IMG/VR virus record: IMGVR_UViG_3300025640_000049
Span: 1 to 27,640 of that record
From: a virus
Direction: 5' to 3' (one strand)
DNA length: 27,640 nucleotides
Shown here: piece after piece, positions 14,332-26,176 of the stretch
How positions within the stretch are numbered: the stretch's first letter is position 1
Layout: each line of letters begins with the position of its first letter
Notes under the pieces: generated by a model
What the model saw: the letters and a program-made list of their open reading frames with translations, nothing else
Told to the model about the DNA's origin: nothing
The model's database searches: none
Translations under genes and position numbers: made by a program

Positions 14332-14508
14332 ATGACAAATAAAGTAAACAATGTGAGCATTGTAAGAAAGATTAATATGTGGTCTGAAAACACAGCCGCT
14401 CAAGAGGGAAACAGTAGCAGTAGCAATGGTTTCTTTGGAATTCGTATGTCTAGCTGGGGAAATCCACAGACTGCCCCACCTGTTAAAGTAGGGGGAGCCA
14501 ACACATGA
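14332..14508 (+). CDS. 58-residue protein of unknown function upstream of RNA polymerase
   Basis: The short ORF reads MTNKVNNVSIVRKINMWSEN..., with a Ser-rich stretch (GNSSSSNGFFGIR) and end PPVKVGGANT. It has an AAGGGAAG ribosome site about 10 nt upstream and its stop overlaps the RNA polymerase start (ATGA). It fills the gap between integrase and polymerase exactly, and the coupling favours a real gene. No family recognised. Confidence 0.6.
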   Translation: MTNKVNNVSIVRKINMWSENTAAQEGNSSSSNGFFGIRMSSWGNPQTAPPVKVGGANT

Positions 14509-17084
14509 GCAACGATAGCAACACACAGGCAAACCCTATCTCAGAAGCCTACAACGAGACCATGAAACAAGATGGCAAACGTAAGTTTAACGAGAAGTAT
14601 CAACAGGCAGAAAACGTAACAGAGCAAGCACCAGAATATAGCCAACTAAAGCAAGTCTTAGACTTAGTGGCTGATGGTTTATCCAAAGACATCGAGGAAG
14701 CCAGAAGAGGCAAAGGACGCCGCCCAACGTGGCTAAACGACCTTATGCACCTTGACCCTAGACAGCTGGCACTCATTGGTCTCCAGAGTTGCTACAATGC
14801 AGTCTTGAAAGACAGTACGCTCAGTAGTGTAACTCAAGAAATAGGCAGTCTTATAGATCGTGAATGTTTAGCGTTGGAGTTGCTTCATAGCGATGATGAG
14901 GAAGCCAACAGGAACAACAGACAAATAGTAAAGATGGTGTCTGAAGCCCACACGTCAGCACATGTCAGGCTGAAGGCTCTCAGGAACATAGCGTCTAAGA
15001 ATGGCACCAAGTCTATATACTTTGGCATCGAAGAGAAAAAGGGTGATCGCAAGATGCACATGAAGCGGAAGACAGCCAACGCCGCTCCAGTCATCTCAGC
15101 AATCTTTCAGTATTGTCATGTCTTCCAAAAGGACACTCAGTACACCACTCCAAAAAACAGTATCACTCGTTTGTCTTTTACTCAGGAAGCCCAGCGCGAA
15201 ATTGAGAGAAGCAAAGAGTATCTCCAATGGTCACAACCGCTTCTAAAGCCTATACCAATGGACACACCGAACCCTTGGCAGGGCTTCCATACAGGGGCTT
15301 ATAAGGACTGGAGACTAGCAGAGGTTGTCAAACTCGTTAGAGGGGCTTCCAGCAAGCAGATTGAGGCCATAGAACACAGTTTCAAGGGTGAAACTCCAGA
15401 ACACTTTAGAGCACTCAATGCACTGCAAGAAACGAGGCTGTGTATCAACGAGGAAATGCTTGAAGTTGTCGAGTGGTGCTGGGAGACCAGACAGTCATTC
15501 GGTAAGTTTCCAAAGCGAGATAAACCTGAGTTTCCGAGGCTTCCAGAGGATCACATGACAATGGATCAGGAGCTGAAGAAAGCCATTAAAGAAGACCAGC
15601 GTGAATGGCGAAACACTGACCGCAGGGTAAAGGGTGCTGAAGCTGTCATGAAGCAAGACCTTCAGATTGCTAATGAACTTGCAGTCCATGATTACTTTAC
15701 GATCCCATGGGCATGTGATTTCAGAGGCCGCTTCAACATGGTTCCGTCTTTCAACTACCACAGAGACGACCACATTAAGTCACTCTTTCAGTTTCAGAGA
15801 GGCCGTGTTGTCGATGGGCAAAACATTAGATGGCTAAAGATACACATTGCTAATTGCTCTGGCTTTGAGAAGATCGACAAAGCACCTCTTGATGGACGTG
15901 TGGCATGGTTTGACAAGAATGAGGGTGTACTCTTGGACATGGCTAAAGACTACAAGAACAGTCTGGGTCAATGGTCAGGTGCGGATTCTCCTTTTCAAAT
16001 GCTCGCGGCTATCTTTGAGTATTCCAGATACCTTGATGAAGGTGATGATTTTGTTGGCTTTATACCAATTTCACTTGATGGGACTAATAGTGGTGTTCAG
16101 CATTACAGTCTTTTGACACGTAGTGAAGAGGGTGCTTTGGTAAACTTAGTTCCACAAGACACAATGGCTGACCTTTACCAAACTGTTGCTGACAAAGTTA
16201 CACAAAGGCTTGTTGTTGATTTAGACGACCCTAGTGCCTTTGGTAGCAATGAGATCACCAAGGCTGAACTGGCGCGTATTTGGCTAGACTTTGGTATTAC
16301 CAGAGGAAATCAGAAGAGGGCTTGCATGACCTACCCATATTCATCGGTTGTCGCTGGAATGACTGGTCAATACATGGAAGACGTTATGAAGCCTTTGCAA
16401 CGATCTGTGTCTTATGGTGAACTAAAGGAACACCCGATTGCTAGGACAAATAAAGAGCGAAAGGTTGCGTCACGTTACCTTGCTGGTCACAGCTACGACA
16501 GCATTGTGGAGACCTTGCCTAAAGCGGCTGAAGCTATGAAGTGGATACAGTCGTGCACCAATGTTATCAGCAAGCAAAACAAGCTGGTCAACTGGACTTC
16601 GCCTAGTGGGTTTAGGGTCTTCCATAACTATCTAAAGAGGGACAGGGTAGAGACTAAGATATTCTTGTTTGATACAGCTGTAGGCGAGAGAACTAGGTCT
16701 AAGGTCTCCTTATCGCTAGATACAGGTAAGGTGGATGTCAGGAAGAACACAGCATCTGTAGCGGCTAACCTCATACACTCGCTTGACGCCTCTGGCATGG
16801 CTAAAACTATAGTCAAACTGCTAGACGCTGGAGCGACTAATGACTTCTTTATGATCCACGATAGCTTTGCAATCTCTGGCGATGTAGACGACCTCTACTA
16901 CGGTGTCCGTGAAGCCCACATTGAGATGTATGATGCTGAGAACCTGTTGCTAAAGTGGCAAGAGGAACTGAGGCAACAGCTGGATCATCCGTTCGACTTT
17001 GAGAGGTCTGAAGTCAATCCAATGCCCGAAATGGGAAACCTAAACCTACAGCTAATAAGGGACAGTCAATTCTGCTTTAGTTAA
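14505..17084 (+). CDS. T7-type single-subunit DNA-directed RNA polymerase
   Basis: The 859-residue enzyme (T7 polymerase has 883) transcribes phage genes from phage-specific promoters without host factors. The palm motif ISLDGTNSGVQHYS holds catalytic D525 (T7 D537). The fingers motif NQKRACMTYPYSS gives K604 and Y612, matching T7 K631 and Y639 at identical spacing. ANLIHSLDASGMAKTIV and MIHDSF carry H785 and catalytic D786 (T7 H811 and D812). The N-terminal promoter-recognition region is present but divergent, so specificity cannot be read off. It is coupled to the small upstream gene and followed by two hairpins, the second a clear terminator. Confidence 0.97.
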   Translation: MSNDSNTQANPISEAYNETMKQDGKRKFNEKYQQAENVTEQAPEYSQLKQVLDLVADGLSKDIEEARRGKGRRPTWLNDLMHLDPRQLALIGLQSCYNAVLKDSTLSSVTQEIGSLIDRECLALELLHSDDEEANRNNRQIVKMVSEAHTSAHVRLKALRNIASKNGTKSIYFGIEEKKGDRKMHMKRKTANAAPVISAIFQYCHVFQKDTQYTTPKNSITRLSFTQEAQREIERSKEYLQWSQPLLKPIPMDTPNPWQGFHTGAYKDWRLAEVVKLVRGASSKQIEAIEHSFKGETPEHFRALNALQETRLCINEEMLEVVEWCWETRQSFGKFPKRDKPEFPRLPEDHMTMDQELKKAIKEDQREWRNTDRRVKGAEAVMKQDLQIANELAVHDYFTIPWACDFRGRFNMVPSFNYHRDDHIKSLFQFQRGRVVDGQNIRWLKIHIANCSGFEKIDKAPLDGRVAWFDKNEGVLLDMAKDYKNSLGQWSGADSPFQMLAAIFEYSRYLDEGDDFVGFIPISLDGTNSGVQHYSLLTRSEEGALVNLVPQDTMADLYQTVADKVTQRLVVDLDDPSAFGSNEITKAELARIWLDFGITRGNQKRACMTYPYSSVVAGMTGQYMEDVMKPLQRSVSYGELKEHPIARTNKERKVASRYLAGHSYDSIVETLPKAAEAMKWIQSCTNVISKQNKLVNWTSPSGFRVFHNYLKRDRVETKIFLFDTAVGERTRSKVSLSLDTGKVDVRKNTASVAANLIHSLDASGMAKTIVKLLDAGATNDFFMIHDSFAISGDVDDLYYGVREAHIEMYDAENLLLKWQEELRQQLDHPFDFERSEVNPMPEMGNLNLQLIRDSQFCFS

Positions 17085-23258: not shown

Positions 23259-23497
23259 AAGATGCTGTCAACAAGCCACCTCATTACAACTCAGGATCAA
23301 TCGAATGCATCGACGCAATGCAAGCGATGGCAGATGGCTCTCTAGTCTGGGGTCACAATGCTTACCTCTGGCAGAATGCTTTTAAGTACCTGTGGCGTTG
23401 GCCTTACAAGAAAAAACCCGTCGAAGACCTAAAGAAGTGCCGTTGGTACTTAGATCGACTTATTGAACTCATTGAAGAAAAAGAAGAAACACCATGA
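23240..23497 (+). CDS. DUF3310-type small protein
   Basis: The 85-residue protein has the DUF3310 pattern: NKPPHYNSGSIECIDAMQAM, then AYLWQNAFKYLWRWPYKKKP and EDLKKCRWYLDRLIELIEEK. This domain occurs in many phages near nucleotide metabolism genes and, as I recall, in T7 gp1.7, a nucleotide kinase. The isolated domain's function is not established. It lies between exonuclease and ribonucleotide reductase, coupled to both (19-nt and 4-nt overlaps), which supports a nucleotide-related role. Confidence 0.85.
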   Translation: METDKIEDAVNKPPHYNSGSIECIDAMQAMADGSLVWGHNAYLWQNAFKYLWRWPYKKKPVEDLKKCRWYLDRLIELIEEKEETP

Positions 23498-25461
23498 ACA
23501 ATTTACTACCTACTGACTACCAAGCCTTCATACACACCAGCCGCTATGCCAGATGGCTAGAAGATGAAGGAAGACGTGAGAGCTGGACTGAGACTGTCAG
23601 CCGATACATGGACAACGTGGTTAAGTCCCGTGTGAGCCGTGAGATTGCCAATGAGATTGAGCAAGCAATATTAAACTTAGAAGTGATGCCATCTATGAGG
23701 TCATTGATGACAGCTGGTAAGGCATTATCGAGAGACAACACAGCTGGATACAATTGCTCCTATACACCTATAGATCACATGAGATGCTTTGACGAAGTTC
23801 TCTTTATTCTACTATGTGGCACTGGTGTCGGCTTCTCTGTTGAAAAGAAGTATGTTGATAGCTTACCAGACGTCCCTAGACTAACAGCTGGTGATTACAG
23901 AATTGTTGTAGAAGACAGCAAGGAAGGCTGGGCAAAGGCATACAGAGAACTCATTGAAGAGCTATACAATCACGGCAATATACCGACATGGGATGTCTCT
24001 AATGTTAGACCAGCTGGTGCACGTTTAGAAACCTTTGGTGGCAGAGCATCTGGTGCTGAACCATTGGTTGAACTGTTTGAACACACCATAGAAACCTTCA
24101 AGAAAAAGCAGGGTAGCAAGCTGTCGTCTTTAGATGTCCACAGCATCATGTGCATGATTGGCTCGATAGTTGTGGTTGGTGGGGTGCGACGTTCAGCGAT
24201 GATCAGCCTAAGTGATCTATCGGATGACGAGATGAGAACAGCCAAGTCTGGCGAATGGTACATCAACAACCCACACCATGCACTTGCTAACAACTCTGTG
24301 GCCTTCGAAAGTAAACCCAGCGGTGTAGACTTCATGAAGGAATGGGCGTCACTAGCGGCCTCTGGTTCTGGTGAACGTGGTATCTTCAATAGACAGGCGG
24401 CTAGAGACAAAGCTAAACGCGATGGTATTAGAGATCACATGTGGGAGTTTGGCACGAATCCTTGCAGTGAGATAGTGTTACTTGGGCAACAGCTTGAGGA
24501 ATATGAAGACCCTGAGACTGGTGAAACTAAGACTAGAGGCATTGTTGGTACTGGTGGTCAATTCTGTAATCTTACAGAGGCTGTCATTAGGGCTACAGAT
24601 ACTGAAGCTGACATCTCGAATAAGATACGTCTTGCAACTATCTTAGGTACTATCCAAGCAACCTTAACTCACTTCCCTTACTTACGTGACTGTTGGACAA
24701 ACAATACAGAACGTGAGGCACTCTTAGGTGTATCTATGACAGGCATCATGGACTGTACGCTGACTAATGGTAAAGAAGATGGACTTGAGGGTAGGCTAGA
24801 TACATGGCGTAGTGTTGCTAGAGAAACTAATAACTACTTTGCAGATGAGTTAGGTATTAACAGGTCGGCGGCGTGTACGGCGGTCAAGCCAAGTGGTACG
24901 GTTTCCAGTCTTGTAGATAGCAGTAGCGGAATACATGCGAGACACTCTGAATACTACATCAGAACTGTCCGTGGAGACAACAAAGACCCACTGACACACT
25001 TCTTAGCAGATCAAGGAATACCATCAGAACCTTGTGTCATGAAGCCAAACACTACGACTGTTTTCAGTTTCCCCATGAAGTCACCAGAAGGCGCAGTCAC
25101 ACGTCACGATATGACAGCGATAGAACAGCTGGAGATGTGGCTAACGTACCAGCGTCACTACACAGACCATAAGCCATCAGTAACTGTATCAGTCGGAGAT
25201 GAAGAATGGGCAGAGGTAGGTGCGTTTGTCTACAAGCACTTCGATGAGATGTCTGGTGTCAGCTTCTTACCTCGCTTTGACCACACGTATGCTCAAGCAC
25301 CCTATCAAGACATCAGCGAAGATCAGTATGAGGCCGCATTCTTCGCAATGCCTAGTAAAATTGATTGGTCTCGATTGTCTGATTATGAGACTGAGGACAC
25401 AACTAAAGGTTCGCAAACTTTAGCATGTACTGGCGGAACTTGTGAGATTGTAGACATCTAA
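23494..25461 (+). CDS. nrdJ: Class II (adenosylcobalamin-dependent) ribonucleotide reductase
   Basis: The 655-residue enzyme makes deoxyribonucleotides in one chain using vitamin B12. By comparison with the Lactobacillus leichmannii RTPR, I assign C88 (in YNCSYTP) and C358 (QFCNLTEA) as the redox pair, C324 as thiyl radical in NPCSEI with N322 and E326, and C645 and C650 (ACTGGTCEIVDI) as the C-terminal shuttle pair. Their spacing of 5 equals that in RTPR. Other landmarks are FILLCGTGVGFSVEKK and AVKPSGTVSSLVD. No NrdB-like partner or separate small subunit is nearby. Class II reductases are frequent in marine phages; the host must supply cobalamin. A terminator follows. Confidence 0.93.
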   Translation: MNNLLPTDYQAFIHTSRYARWLEDEGRRESWTETVSRYMDNVVKSRVSREIANEIEQAILNLEVMPSMRSLMTAGKALSRDNTAGYNCSYTPIDHMRCFDEVLFILLCGTGVGFSVEKKYVDSLPDVPRLTAGDYRIVVEDSKEGWAKAYRELIEELYNHGNIPTWDVSNVRPAGARLETFGGRASGAEPLVELFEHTIETFKKKQGSKLSSLDVHSIMCMIGSIVVVGGVRRSAMISLSDLSDDEMRTAKSGEWYINNPHHALANNSVAFESKPSGVDFMKEWASLAASGSGERGIFNRQAARDKAKRDGIRDHMWEFGTNPCSEIVLLGQQLEEYEDPETGETKTRGIVGTGGQFCNLTEAVIRATDTEADISNKIRLATILGTIQATLTHFPYLRDCWTNNTEREALLGVSMTGIMDCTLTNGKEDGLEGRLDTWRSVARETNNYFADELGINRSAACTAVKPSGTVSSLVDSSSGIHARHSEYYIRTVRGDNKDPLTHFLADQGIPSEPCVMKPNTTTVFSFPMKSPEGAVTRHDMTAIEQLEMWLTYQRHYTDHKPSVTVSVGDEEWAEVGAFVYKHFDEMSGVSFLPRFDHTYAQAPYQDISEDQYEAAFFAMPSKIDWSRLSDYETEDTTKGSQTLACTGGTCEIVDI

Positions 25462-25469
25462 AGAAAACG

Positions 25470-25510
25470 AAAGCCCAACTAGCAAAAAGTTATCTAGTAG
25501 TTGGGCTTTT
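25470..25510 (+). terminator. Rho-independent terminator after the reductase
   Basis: AAAGCCCAACTA (25470-25481) pairs with TAGTTGGGCTTT (25498-25509), 16-nt loop, followed by T. It separates the reductase from three small genes. Confidence 0.85.
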
Positions 25511-25543
25511 GACATCTAAAAATAATATAAAATGGAGAGGTGA

Positions 25544-25750
25544 ATGAACAGAGAAGAACTGTTGTTGATACAGCACAAATCCGTGGCAGATGCTGAAAAC
25601 AAAAGAATGAGAGAAACATTCAGAATTAATAGTTACGCATTTGGGGACAACTGGGATTGGCATAGAGCACGTCAGGTCAGTGGCTCTAATGGCGGTAGAA
25701 AAAACGCCCAGAGACCTTGGGCAAAGAAAGAGAGCAGTGATGAAAGATAG
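25544..25750 (+). CDS. 68-residue protein of unknown function
   Basis: The ORF starts after GGAGAGGTGA. The protein is charged (EELLLIQHKSVADAENKRMR, then RARQVSGSNGGRKNAQRPWA) with a basic middle and acidic end (KKESSDER). It is a possible small nucleic-acid-binding protein by composition only. It is coupled to the zinc-ribbon gene (11-nt overlap). Confidence 0.7.
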   Translation: MNREELLLIQHKSVADAENKRMRETFRINSYAFGDNWDWHRARQVSGSNGGRKNAQRPWAKKESSDER

Positions 25751-25934
25751 TGTAACGCATTGTCCAAAGTGCATGGTGAAGACTAAAGTAATCGAAACCA
25801 TCCCCCACTTCAAATATGGCTACCCAAGCAAAAGAAGGCAACGACAGTGCCCTCAGTGTGGGATGCGAAGGATGACAGTAGAAATACCGATAGAGCAGGG
25901 GGATAAGTATTTCTCATGTTCACAGTCGAAATAG
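25740..25934 (+). CDS. NrdR-like zinc-ribbon mini-protein
   Basis: I choose ATG 25740 (64 residues, MKDSVTHCPKCMVKTKVIET...) because an AAAGAGAG site precedes it and it overlaps the previous gene closely; the ATG at 25641 would add 33 residues of unlike sequence. The pattern CPKC, TKVIET, a spacer, SKRRQRQCPQCGMRRMTVEI closely resembles the zinc ribbon of NrdR, the bacterial repressor of ribonucleotide reductase genes (CPxC, TKVxDSR, RRRxCxxCxxRFTT). NrdR's ATP-cone domain is missing. It lies one gene after the reductase, so it may bind DNA near reductase control sites or act as a decoy; this is inference. Confidence 0.7.
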   Translation: MKDSVTHCPKCMVKTKVIETIPHFKYGYPSKRRQRQCPQCGMRRMTVEIPIEQGDKYFSCSQSK

Positions 25935-26176
25935 AGTCAAACTATACCAAAGTTGTCTCAGTAGATGCAGATGGTAGGTTTGAAGATGTAGAGATGTATC
26001 TTGAGGACGATGGGACTTGTTTCATTAGACAGTTCTGTGATGAACTAAATGAGTTCCAATTAGTAGCCATCAACTACAAACAAGTATTAGACCTAATGGC
26101 CTCTTTAGATGCCCATGATGGTGTTTATATAACTGAGGTGGGTGGAGAGCAGGGAAGTCATCTCAAGGATGTCTAG
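25916..26176 (+). CDS. 86-residue acidic protein, unknown
   Basis: The last rightward gene is acidic with strand-like spacing: MFTVEIESNYTKVVSVDADG, EDVEMYLEDDGTCFIRQFCD, FQLVAINYKQVLDLMASLDA. It overlaps the zinc-ribbon gene by 19 nt. A small immunoglobulin-like or OB-like fold is conceivable; no family recognised. An inverted repeat GGAGAGCAG/CTGCTCTCC (26144-26152 and 26180-26188) covers its end. Confidence 0.7.
   Translation: MFTVEIESNYTKVVSVDADGRFEDVEMYLEDDGTCFIRQFCDELNEFQLVAINYKQVLDLMASLDAHDGVYITEVGGEQGSHLKDV

Follow-up and report, generated by a model that had tools for sequence, protein, structure and literature searches.

Downstream of a class II ribonucleotide reductase gene (nrdJ), the virus record studied here, from a marine phage, encodes a small protein that resembles the zinc ribbon of NrdR. 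The question raised by this locus is whether such a shortened protein is a phage NrdR that acts on the neighboring reductase gene or on those of the host, or whether it has another use. The record is a 27,640-base stretch of DNA, hereafter called the window, and carries a gene for a T7-like RNA polymerase. This single-subunit enzyme (positions 14505-17084) is 29.6% identical to the best phage isolate among the matches listed and, as judged by its sequence, appears to represent a divergent T7-like lineage. No Rfam family reached its gathering score in the window.

The ribbon gene and its neighbors

The ribbon open reading frame translates to MKDSVTHCPKCMVKTKVIETIPHFKYGYPSKRRQRQCPQCGMRRMTVEIPIEQGDKYFSCSQSK, followed by a stop codon, and the CPKC and TKVIET motifs quoted in the original prediction are present in it. 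Proteins of 64 amino acids that are 86-100% identical to the window ribbon are encoded on 28 viral contigs. The 29 copies of the gene, window included, comprise 22 distinct nucleotide versions with a mean pS of 0.39 and a pN of 0.037, giving a pN/pS of about 0.10; the gene is under purifying selection. The 28 viral relatives and the low pN/pS place the reading frame beyond chance, and it is a real gene.

The features of the locus are collected in Table 1. The ribbon gene shares 11 nt with a 68-aa ORF upstream and 19 nt with an 86-aa ORF downstream, and the overlaps suggest that all three are translated as a unit. PADLOC returned no match for the ribbon or for either of its two neighbors. The stop codon of nrdJ and the start of the ribbon gene are 278 nt apart, and this gap holds most of the 68-aa ORF together with a terminator-like hairpin, which was folded in the window copy and judged from sequence in the relatives. 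The nrdJ product is 65% identical to the class II reductase of Roseobacter phage CRP-235.

Table 1. Features of the ribbon locus, in window coordinates
Feature	Position	Strand	Basis
nrdJ, for a 655-aa class II ribonucleotide reductase (RTPR type) in which no ATP cone was found	23494..25461	+	profile searches
Terminator-like hairpin after nrdJ and ahead of the small operon; in some relatives only	25468..25511	+	folding, z -4.9
68-aa ORF; no Pfam, PHROG or PADLOC match; probably in the same operon as the ribbon gene	25544..25750	+	
NrdR-type zinc-ribbon protein without ATP cone, 64 aa	25740..25934	+	ORF, profiles, predicted fold, selection
Zinc knuckle 1, CPKC, residues 8-11	25761..25772	+	translation; both Cys invariant in 26/26 aligned
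Residues 19-21 (E-T-I); 19 and 21 align with NrdR base-reading D15 and R17	25794..25802	+	alignment
Residues 32-35 (RRQR), aligned with NrdR R26-R29	25833..25844	+	alignment
Zinc knuckle 2, CPQC, residues 37-40	25848..25859	+	translation; alignment
86-aa ORF; no significant family match; in 28/28 close loci	25916..26176	+	

Some relatives depart from this arrangement. A 112-aa ORF with a GTG start lies between nrdJ and the 68-aa ORF in loci L010 (5410-5748) and L023 (5451-5789), where other relatives have a 20-nt spacer or the hairpin. The nrdJ of L026 (3790-5784) has two in-frame stops, at codons 533 and 537, and that of contig G001 (locus L004) was matched in pieces; both come from the same metagenome, and the broken genes may reflect error or real decay.

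Kinship to NrdR and the conserved residues

The original prediction had proposed kinship to the NrdR zinc ribbon, and this was borne out by Pfam, by sequence profiles against the PDB and by the predicted fold, each of which gave NrdR as the best match. In the Pfam search the top match of the window protein was the NrdR N-terminal ribbon, PF22811 (E 4.3e-5), at 23.8 bits against a gathering cut-off of 27.2; ISL3 was second (E 0.0043), with other families behind. The cut-off was passed by L026 and by the ribbons of Roseobacter phages CRP-901 and CRP-902 (34.5, 33.2 and 29.8 bits among the three), and L027 lay below it at 20.2 bits. All 26 aligned members of the family matched PF22811 at E<=0.01, compared with 9 for the next family and 6 for PF04606 (Ogr/Delta). 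The Ogr/Delta-like zinc finger proteins are small phage zinc-binding transcription activators; the family was not among the best 25 of 33 Pfam families for the window protein. The full-length NrdR model TIGR00244 scored 18.6 bits against a cut-off of 124.65 and was covered at positions 2-42 of its 147 only, the ribbon domain being 42 positions long.

Searched against the PDB, family profiles of 7 and 26 members retrieved NrdR at 1.1e-5 and 6.4e-6, respectively, and the first non-NrdR protein at 0.049 and 0.068. Against an NrdR profile built in this analysis, none of 1000 cysteine-preserving shuffles reached the score of the window ribbon, and 1 of 1000 equaled it when the neighbors of the knuckles were kept as well; for the CRP-901 and L026 ribbons no shuffle in 1000 did so under either scheme. 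The structural model of the window protein is of medium confidence (pLDDT 77.7, pTM 0.50) and shows a ribbon of three strands, with a helix after it at residues 51-62. A Foldseek search of the PDB gave no match at E 0.001; its first 13 matches had E 0.011-0.069, the leading 12 being NrdR chains and the last one chain B of a Soj-NrdR model. The first five entries from VIA-align were likewise NrdR ones, including Soj-NrdR, with Z-scores of 4.6-5.6, a level little higher than the 4.0 of unrelated folds; ribbons of RNA polymerase I and TFIIS complexes reach 3.4-4.0.

The window protein is thus very probably akin to the NrdR ribbon, and sequence and model predict that it has the N-terminal zinc ribbon with two CxxC motifs found in full NrdR. 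Membership of ISL3, Ogr/Delta or some other zinc-ribbon family, the likeness to NrdR then being due to chance, would fit the score below the gathering cut-off and the second place of ISL3. Against it, L026, CRP-901 and CRP-902 pass PF22811 and the profile, PDB and fold searches all favor NrdR, and we regard it as highly improbable and already disfavored.

CRP-901 and CRP-902 encode distant relatives of the window protein (37% identity, E 4e-9 and 6e-8); further ones are encoded on 27 viral contigs of CRP-901/902 type and on three more contigs. The two Roseobacter phage genes are unannotated in GenBank (OQ401623.1, 687-854; OQ401624.1, 613-783). A genome-contig scan with the family alignment (two short peptide patterns only) found no bacterial relatives.

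The predicted loss of the ATP cone held: the domain model, PF03477, had no match anywhere in the window at E<=10, while the control was positive in 13 of 14 genomes. Because the cone serves dATP/ATP sensing and tetramer formation, its absence should leave the ribbon without NrdR-style nucleotide control, and regulation of that kind would be impossible for it.

Roles for individual residues were carried onto the phage ribbons by alignment with NrdR. In Streptomyces coelicolor NrdR, R12, R26-29 and R37 touch DNA phosphates, and D15 and R17 confer sequence specificity (PMC9110341); the R17A and D15A/R17A variants do not bind DNA, and D15A binds more strongly and less specifically (PMC9110341, section 10). 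In Escherichia coli NrdR, residues 39-45 join the ribbons in pairs, and salt bridges involve R27, R29 and E42 (PMC12176259). Invariant in all 26 phage members are the four cysteines, R33 (R27 in NrdR), R35 (R29), R43 (R37), T46 (T40) and E48 (E42). The sites of D15 and R17 hold D and R in 15 members and E and I in 11. Counted by locus, E19 and I21 occur in the window and in 27 of the 28 close loci, D and R being found in L026; the CRP-901-type loci keep both residues in 29 of 29, L058 being excluded from the count as it ends at a contig edge. At the site of R28 the window clade carries Q, A or H, and the CRP-901 type carries R. For comparison, 578 NrdRs of Rhodobacteraceae were found and 80 kept, and one of these, which has no M start, was dropped. 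The remaining 79 all have D15, R17 and the RRRR phosphate-contact motif, which in the window ribbon reads RRQR, and in all 79 the pairing residues R27, R29 and E42 are likewise invariant. In sequence, the window clade has thus retained the pairing and backbone residues and altered the base-reading ones. Conservation of R27 and R29 is no proof of pairing, since both also contact phosphates.

With the NrdR ribbons (PF22811; E. coli, PDB 9gex and 9fxk; S. coelicolor, PDB 7p37) the phage protein shares two CxxC knuckles 24-25 residues apart, a TKVI(E/D) stretch as in E. coli, an arginine run before the third cysteine, the equivalents of R37, T40 and E42 and, by prediction, a three-stranded ribbon. 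It differs in having a short predicted C-terminal helix instead of the ATP cone, in having E for D15, I for R17 and Q for R28, and in that no NrdR box was found by the phage reductase gene. The window protein is not an NrdR, since it has neither the ATP cone nor the box-reading residues.

We favor the reading that the window protein is a stand-alone, probably paired ribbon of NrdR type that binds DNA with changed or low specificity, and give this a probability of about 0.5. Such a ribbon would have descended from the DNA-binding domain of NrdR or would share ancestry with it. Residues and model suggest that two ribbons would join through the third β-strand and the R27/R29/E42 salt-bridge set and would grip the DNA backbone through the conserved arginines. 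Base reading would be altered by the D15 to E and R17 to I substitutions, and because of these the window clade probably does not act at NrdR boxes and would have another or a low DNA specificity. The phage would be likely to use it constitutively, as a DNA-binding or regulatory protein produced alongside the replication genes. We infer zinc binding, pairing and DNA binding for this protein, and likewise whatever effect it may have on host genes.

The same residues would allow a different role, in which the ribbon would pair with the ribbons of host NrdR, spoil its tetramer on DNA and so lift the repression of host reductase genes, to the benefit of phage DNA synthesis. The invariant pairing residues, shared by the phage members and the Rhodobacteraceae NrdRs, and the altered base-reading residues of the window clade would suit such a dominant-negative protein. 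Points against it are that D15 and R17 are retained in the CRP-901-type ribbons, that a proline (P50) follows the pairing strand in the phage family, and that the window phage supplies its own nrdJ. The analysis leans toward the DNA binder of altered or low specificity, and antagonism of host NrdR is a tentative second choice.

The reductase gene and NrdR boxes

As predicted, the ribbon gene stands close after a class II nrdJ, and nrdJ lies upstream of it in all 28 close loci, two of which are cut by a contig end; the weight that this pairing had been given was not supported by comparison with other phages. The spacer between nrdJ and the small operon was measured in 27 loci, leaving out L004. 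It is 20 nt long in 13 of them, 78-82 nt with the hairpin sequence in seven loci and the window, and 354-423 nt in seven. None of nine other window genes tested was found in the 49 loci L030-L078, some of which are overlapping copies and many of which are short. The complete genomes of CRP-901 and CRP-902 and the 42-kb contig G006 yielded no reductase with the nrdJ protein, PF02867, TIGR02505, PF00268 or PF13597, of which PF02867 is weak for the window type of nrdJ (5 of 5 known nrdJ contigs matched, one above the cut-off).

The comparison was extended to 15 named phages with cone-less NrdR-like ribbons, namely CRP-901, CRP-902 and thirteen others. Searches with reductase models detected a reductase in one, the class II enzyme of S-CRES2, and found none in the records of the other 14. 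Conversely, a ribbon was present at E<=0.1 in none of six nrdJ-bearing marine phages tested. On these counts a tight link between ribbon and reductase was rejected. One observation counts against that rejection: in the partial record of EBPR siphovirus 2, a 104-aa gene labeled "RNR alpha" lies close upstream of the ribbon, with two genes between, although no reductase model matched the record. In the reading we favor, the nrdJ neighborhood is local gene order with no regulatory pairing.

It had also been proposed that the ribbon might bind NrdR boxes, the consensus of which is ACACWATATWTWGTGT. With this consensus the window contained no site at up to three mismatches, against 2.2 expected, and palindromes of box geometry were no more frequent in it than by chance. 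With 400 nt searched ahead of each nrdJ, 11 phages (the window plus 10 relatives) gave best sites of 5-6 mismatches, at the level of shuffled sequence, and a box was found in none; a weighted scan for single and tandem boxes upstream of the same genes likewise gave nothing above shuffles. In raw counts, a few 3-mismatch sites occur elsewhere: at least five across 47 kb of CRP-901, two in the stretch of CRP-902 and one in L026.

The same 400-nt rule found a site at up to three mismatches at four of nine host reductase genes, where 0-4 of 200 shuffles did as well. Another gene, the fifth, had a 4-mismatch site (15 of 200 shuffles) and a 2-mismatch site about 650 nt upstream, and the remaining four had no box-like site within 400 nt upstream. 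Six of the nine regions on their own are a biased sample, five of them having been picked for a site already seen there, and their 5 of 6 does not serve as a rate; the other three listed genes complete the nine. The rule is therefore informative yet blind to about half of the host genes (5 of 9 missed). The nrdR loci made a poor positive control (3 of 80), and in whole host genomes the box pattern was about as common as its reversed control (17+15/25+26, 38+33/35+38, 11+11/9+7 and 26+19/16+19). The search for boxes thus came up empty at the phage nrdJ and gave sites at some host genes; the sites at those four host genes would also suit antagonism of host NrdR.

These results bear most directly on the idea of a functional phage NrdR, one that would act through boxes, free of nucleotide control, to repress the phage nrdJ or the nrd genes of the host. 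The ribbon is of the NrdR type, nrdJ stands upstream of it in every close locus, the gap to the small operon is just 20 nt in nearly half of the loci measured, and weak boxes could escape a rule of such limited sensitivity. The box counts of the window and of the nrdJ upstream regions speak against such a repressor, as do E and I at the sites of D15 and R17. Moreover, NrdR sits on its two boxes as a tetramer built of alternating ribbon pairs and cones, the latter being absent here, and CRP-901 and CRP-902 have the ribbon with no reductase found. The weaker host control made this reading slightly likelier than it had been, and it is still very unlikely. Binding at NrdR boxes, as originally proposed, is disfavored for the window clade by its altered base-reading residues and by the failure to find a box by the phage nrdJ.

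Ribbons of other phages and possible roles

Cone-less ribbons occur in CRP-901 and CRP-902, RcZahn (gp96), S-CRES2, the uncultured MedDCM-OCT-S31-C1, Motura and others, as small ribbon-only or ribbon-led proteins. Like the window protein, the ribbons of the 15 named phages have PF22811 as their best Pfam family, and an ATP cone was found in none of them. All pass the PF22811 cut-off except MW202675, which lies below it. They differ from the window protein in that the R17 site still holds R in 13 of the 15 (H in MedDCM-OCT-S31-C1, E in Montmirail), in that some have a longer C-terminal part, and in that 14 are in records with no detected reductase, whereas the window has nrdJ.

Two candidates were dropped from this count: Pan4, whose ORF does not have the ribbon pattern, and Acinetobacter phage MD-2021a, which has a full-length NrdR with a cone. 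The MD-2021a contig (L094, CAKLQH020000023.1) carries this nrdR beside ribD, glnK and amtB and is apparently bacterial DNA in a phage collection. Also outside the count are near copies (S-CRES1, Yong-M2-251, AC844P1/P3 and a second Motura record), unannotated fecal "Bacteriophage sp." records, and matches from Listeria, Enterococcus, Staphylococcus, Geobacillus, Alistipes, Bacteroides, Parabacteroides and Helicobacter.

Individual ribbon genes have varied settings. RcZahn gp96 (L081, 2977-3192), which is labeled Ogr/Delta-like, scored 39.0 bits with the NrdR ribbon and 14.1 with Ogr_Delta in Pfam; its gene overlaps that of ThyX by 8 nt. In S-SRP02 and MedDCM-OCT-S38-C3 (L084, 4001-4600; L085, 5001-5558) the ribbon heads a protein of 185-199 aa whose C-terminal part had no Pfam match at E<=0.05, and the S-SRP02 gene comes after genes for RusA and a single-stranded DNA-binding protein.

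Such ribbons have already been named by machine. BFVD gives "Transcriptional repressor NrdR-like N-terminal domain-containing protein" for 6 of the 50 matches listed, that of Motura included, and in GenBank two genes of MedDCM phages are called "NrdR", as is one S-SRP02 gene in a note. In published work, "Transcriptional regulator NrdR" appears in a table of PMC8790148, a virus gene is labeled NrdR in PMC5894146, and nrdR is listed in a table of sporulation genes in PMC10294663. In the available text of the open-licence literature (including these three, PMC11092137, PMC6775973 and PMC8601537) we found no study with a cone-less phage ribbon as its subject.

The varied settings of the ribbon genes, near ThyX, primase, polymerase or helicase genes, would suit a zinc-ribbon adaptor for a protein, such as the phage or host RNA polymerase or the replisome, or for RNA, the likeness to NrdR then being ancestry only. 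The resemblance of the fold to the ribbons of RNA polymerase I and TFIIS complexes points the same way. However, the conserved positions are those that contact the DNA backbone and that pair in NrdR, and sequence profiles single out NrdR, so we consider an adaptor unlikely. The presence of ribbons in phages with no detected reductase would fit antagonism of host NrdR. A broader form of that idea, which we hold to be doubtful, is that on repeated occasions phages have retained nothing of NrdR but its pairing and gripping half, as a dominant-negative protein; it would break the tetramer that bends nrd promoters, and host reductase genes would be locked on during infection.

If the ribbon binds DNA without the cone, as in the reading we prefer, the DNA-binding half of NrdR would work alone, off nucleotide control and with a rewired reading of bases. 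Should host NrdR be its partner instead, it would give the phage a route to opening the host dNTP supply, and were the dominant-negative reading true, the loss of D15 and R17 in the window clade would make of the ribbon a pure poison of the host repressor. In either case, an "NrdR" label that a machine has put on a small phage protein can mislead, for the sensing domain is missing and, in the window clade, the box-reading residues are altered.
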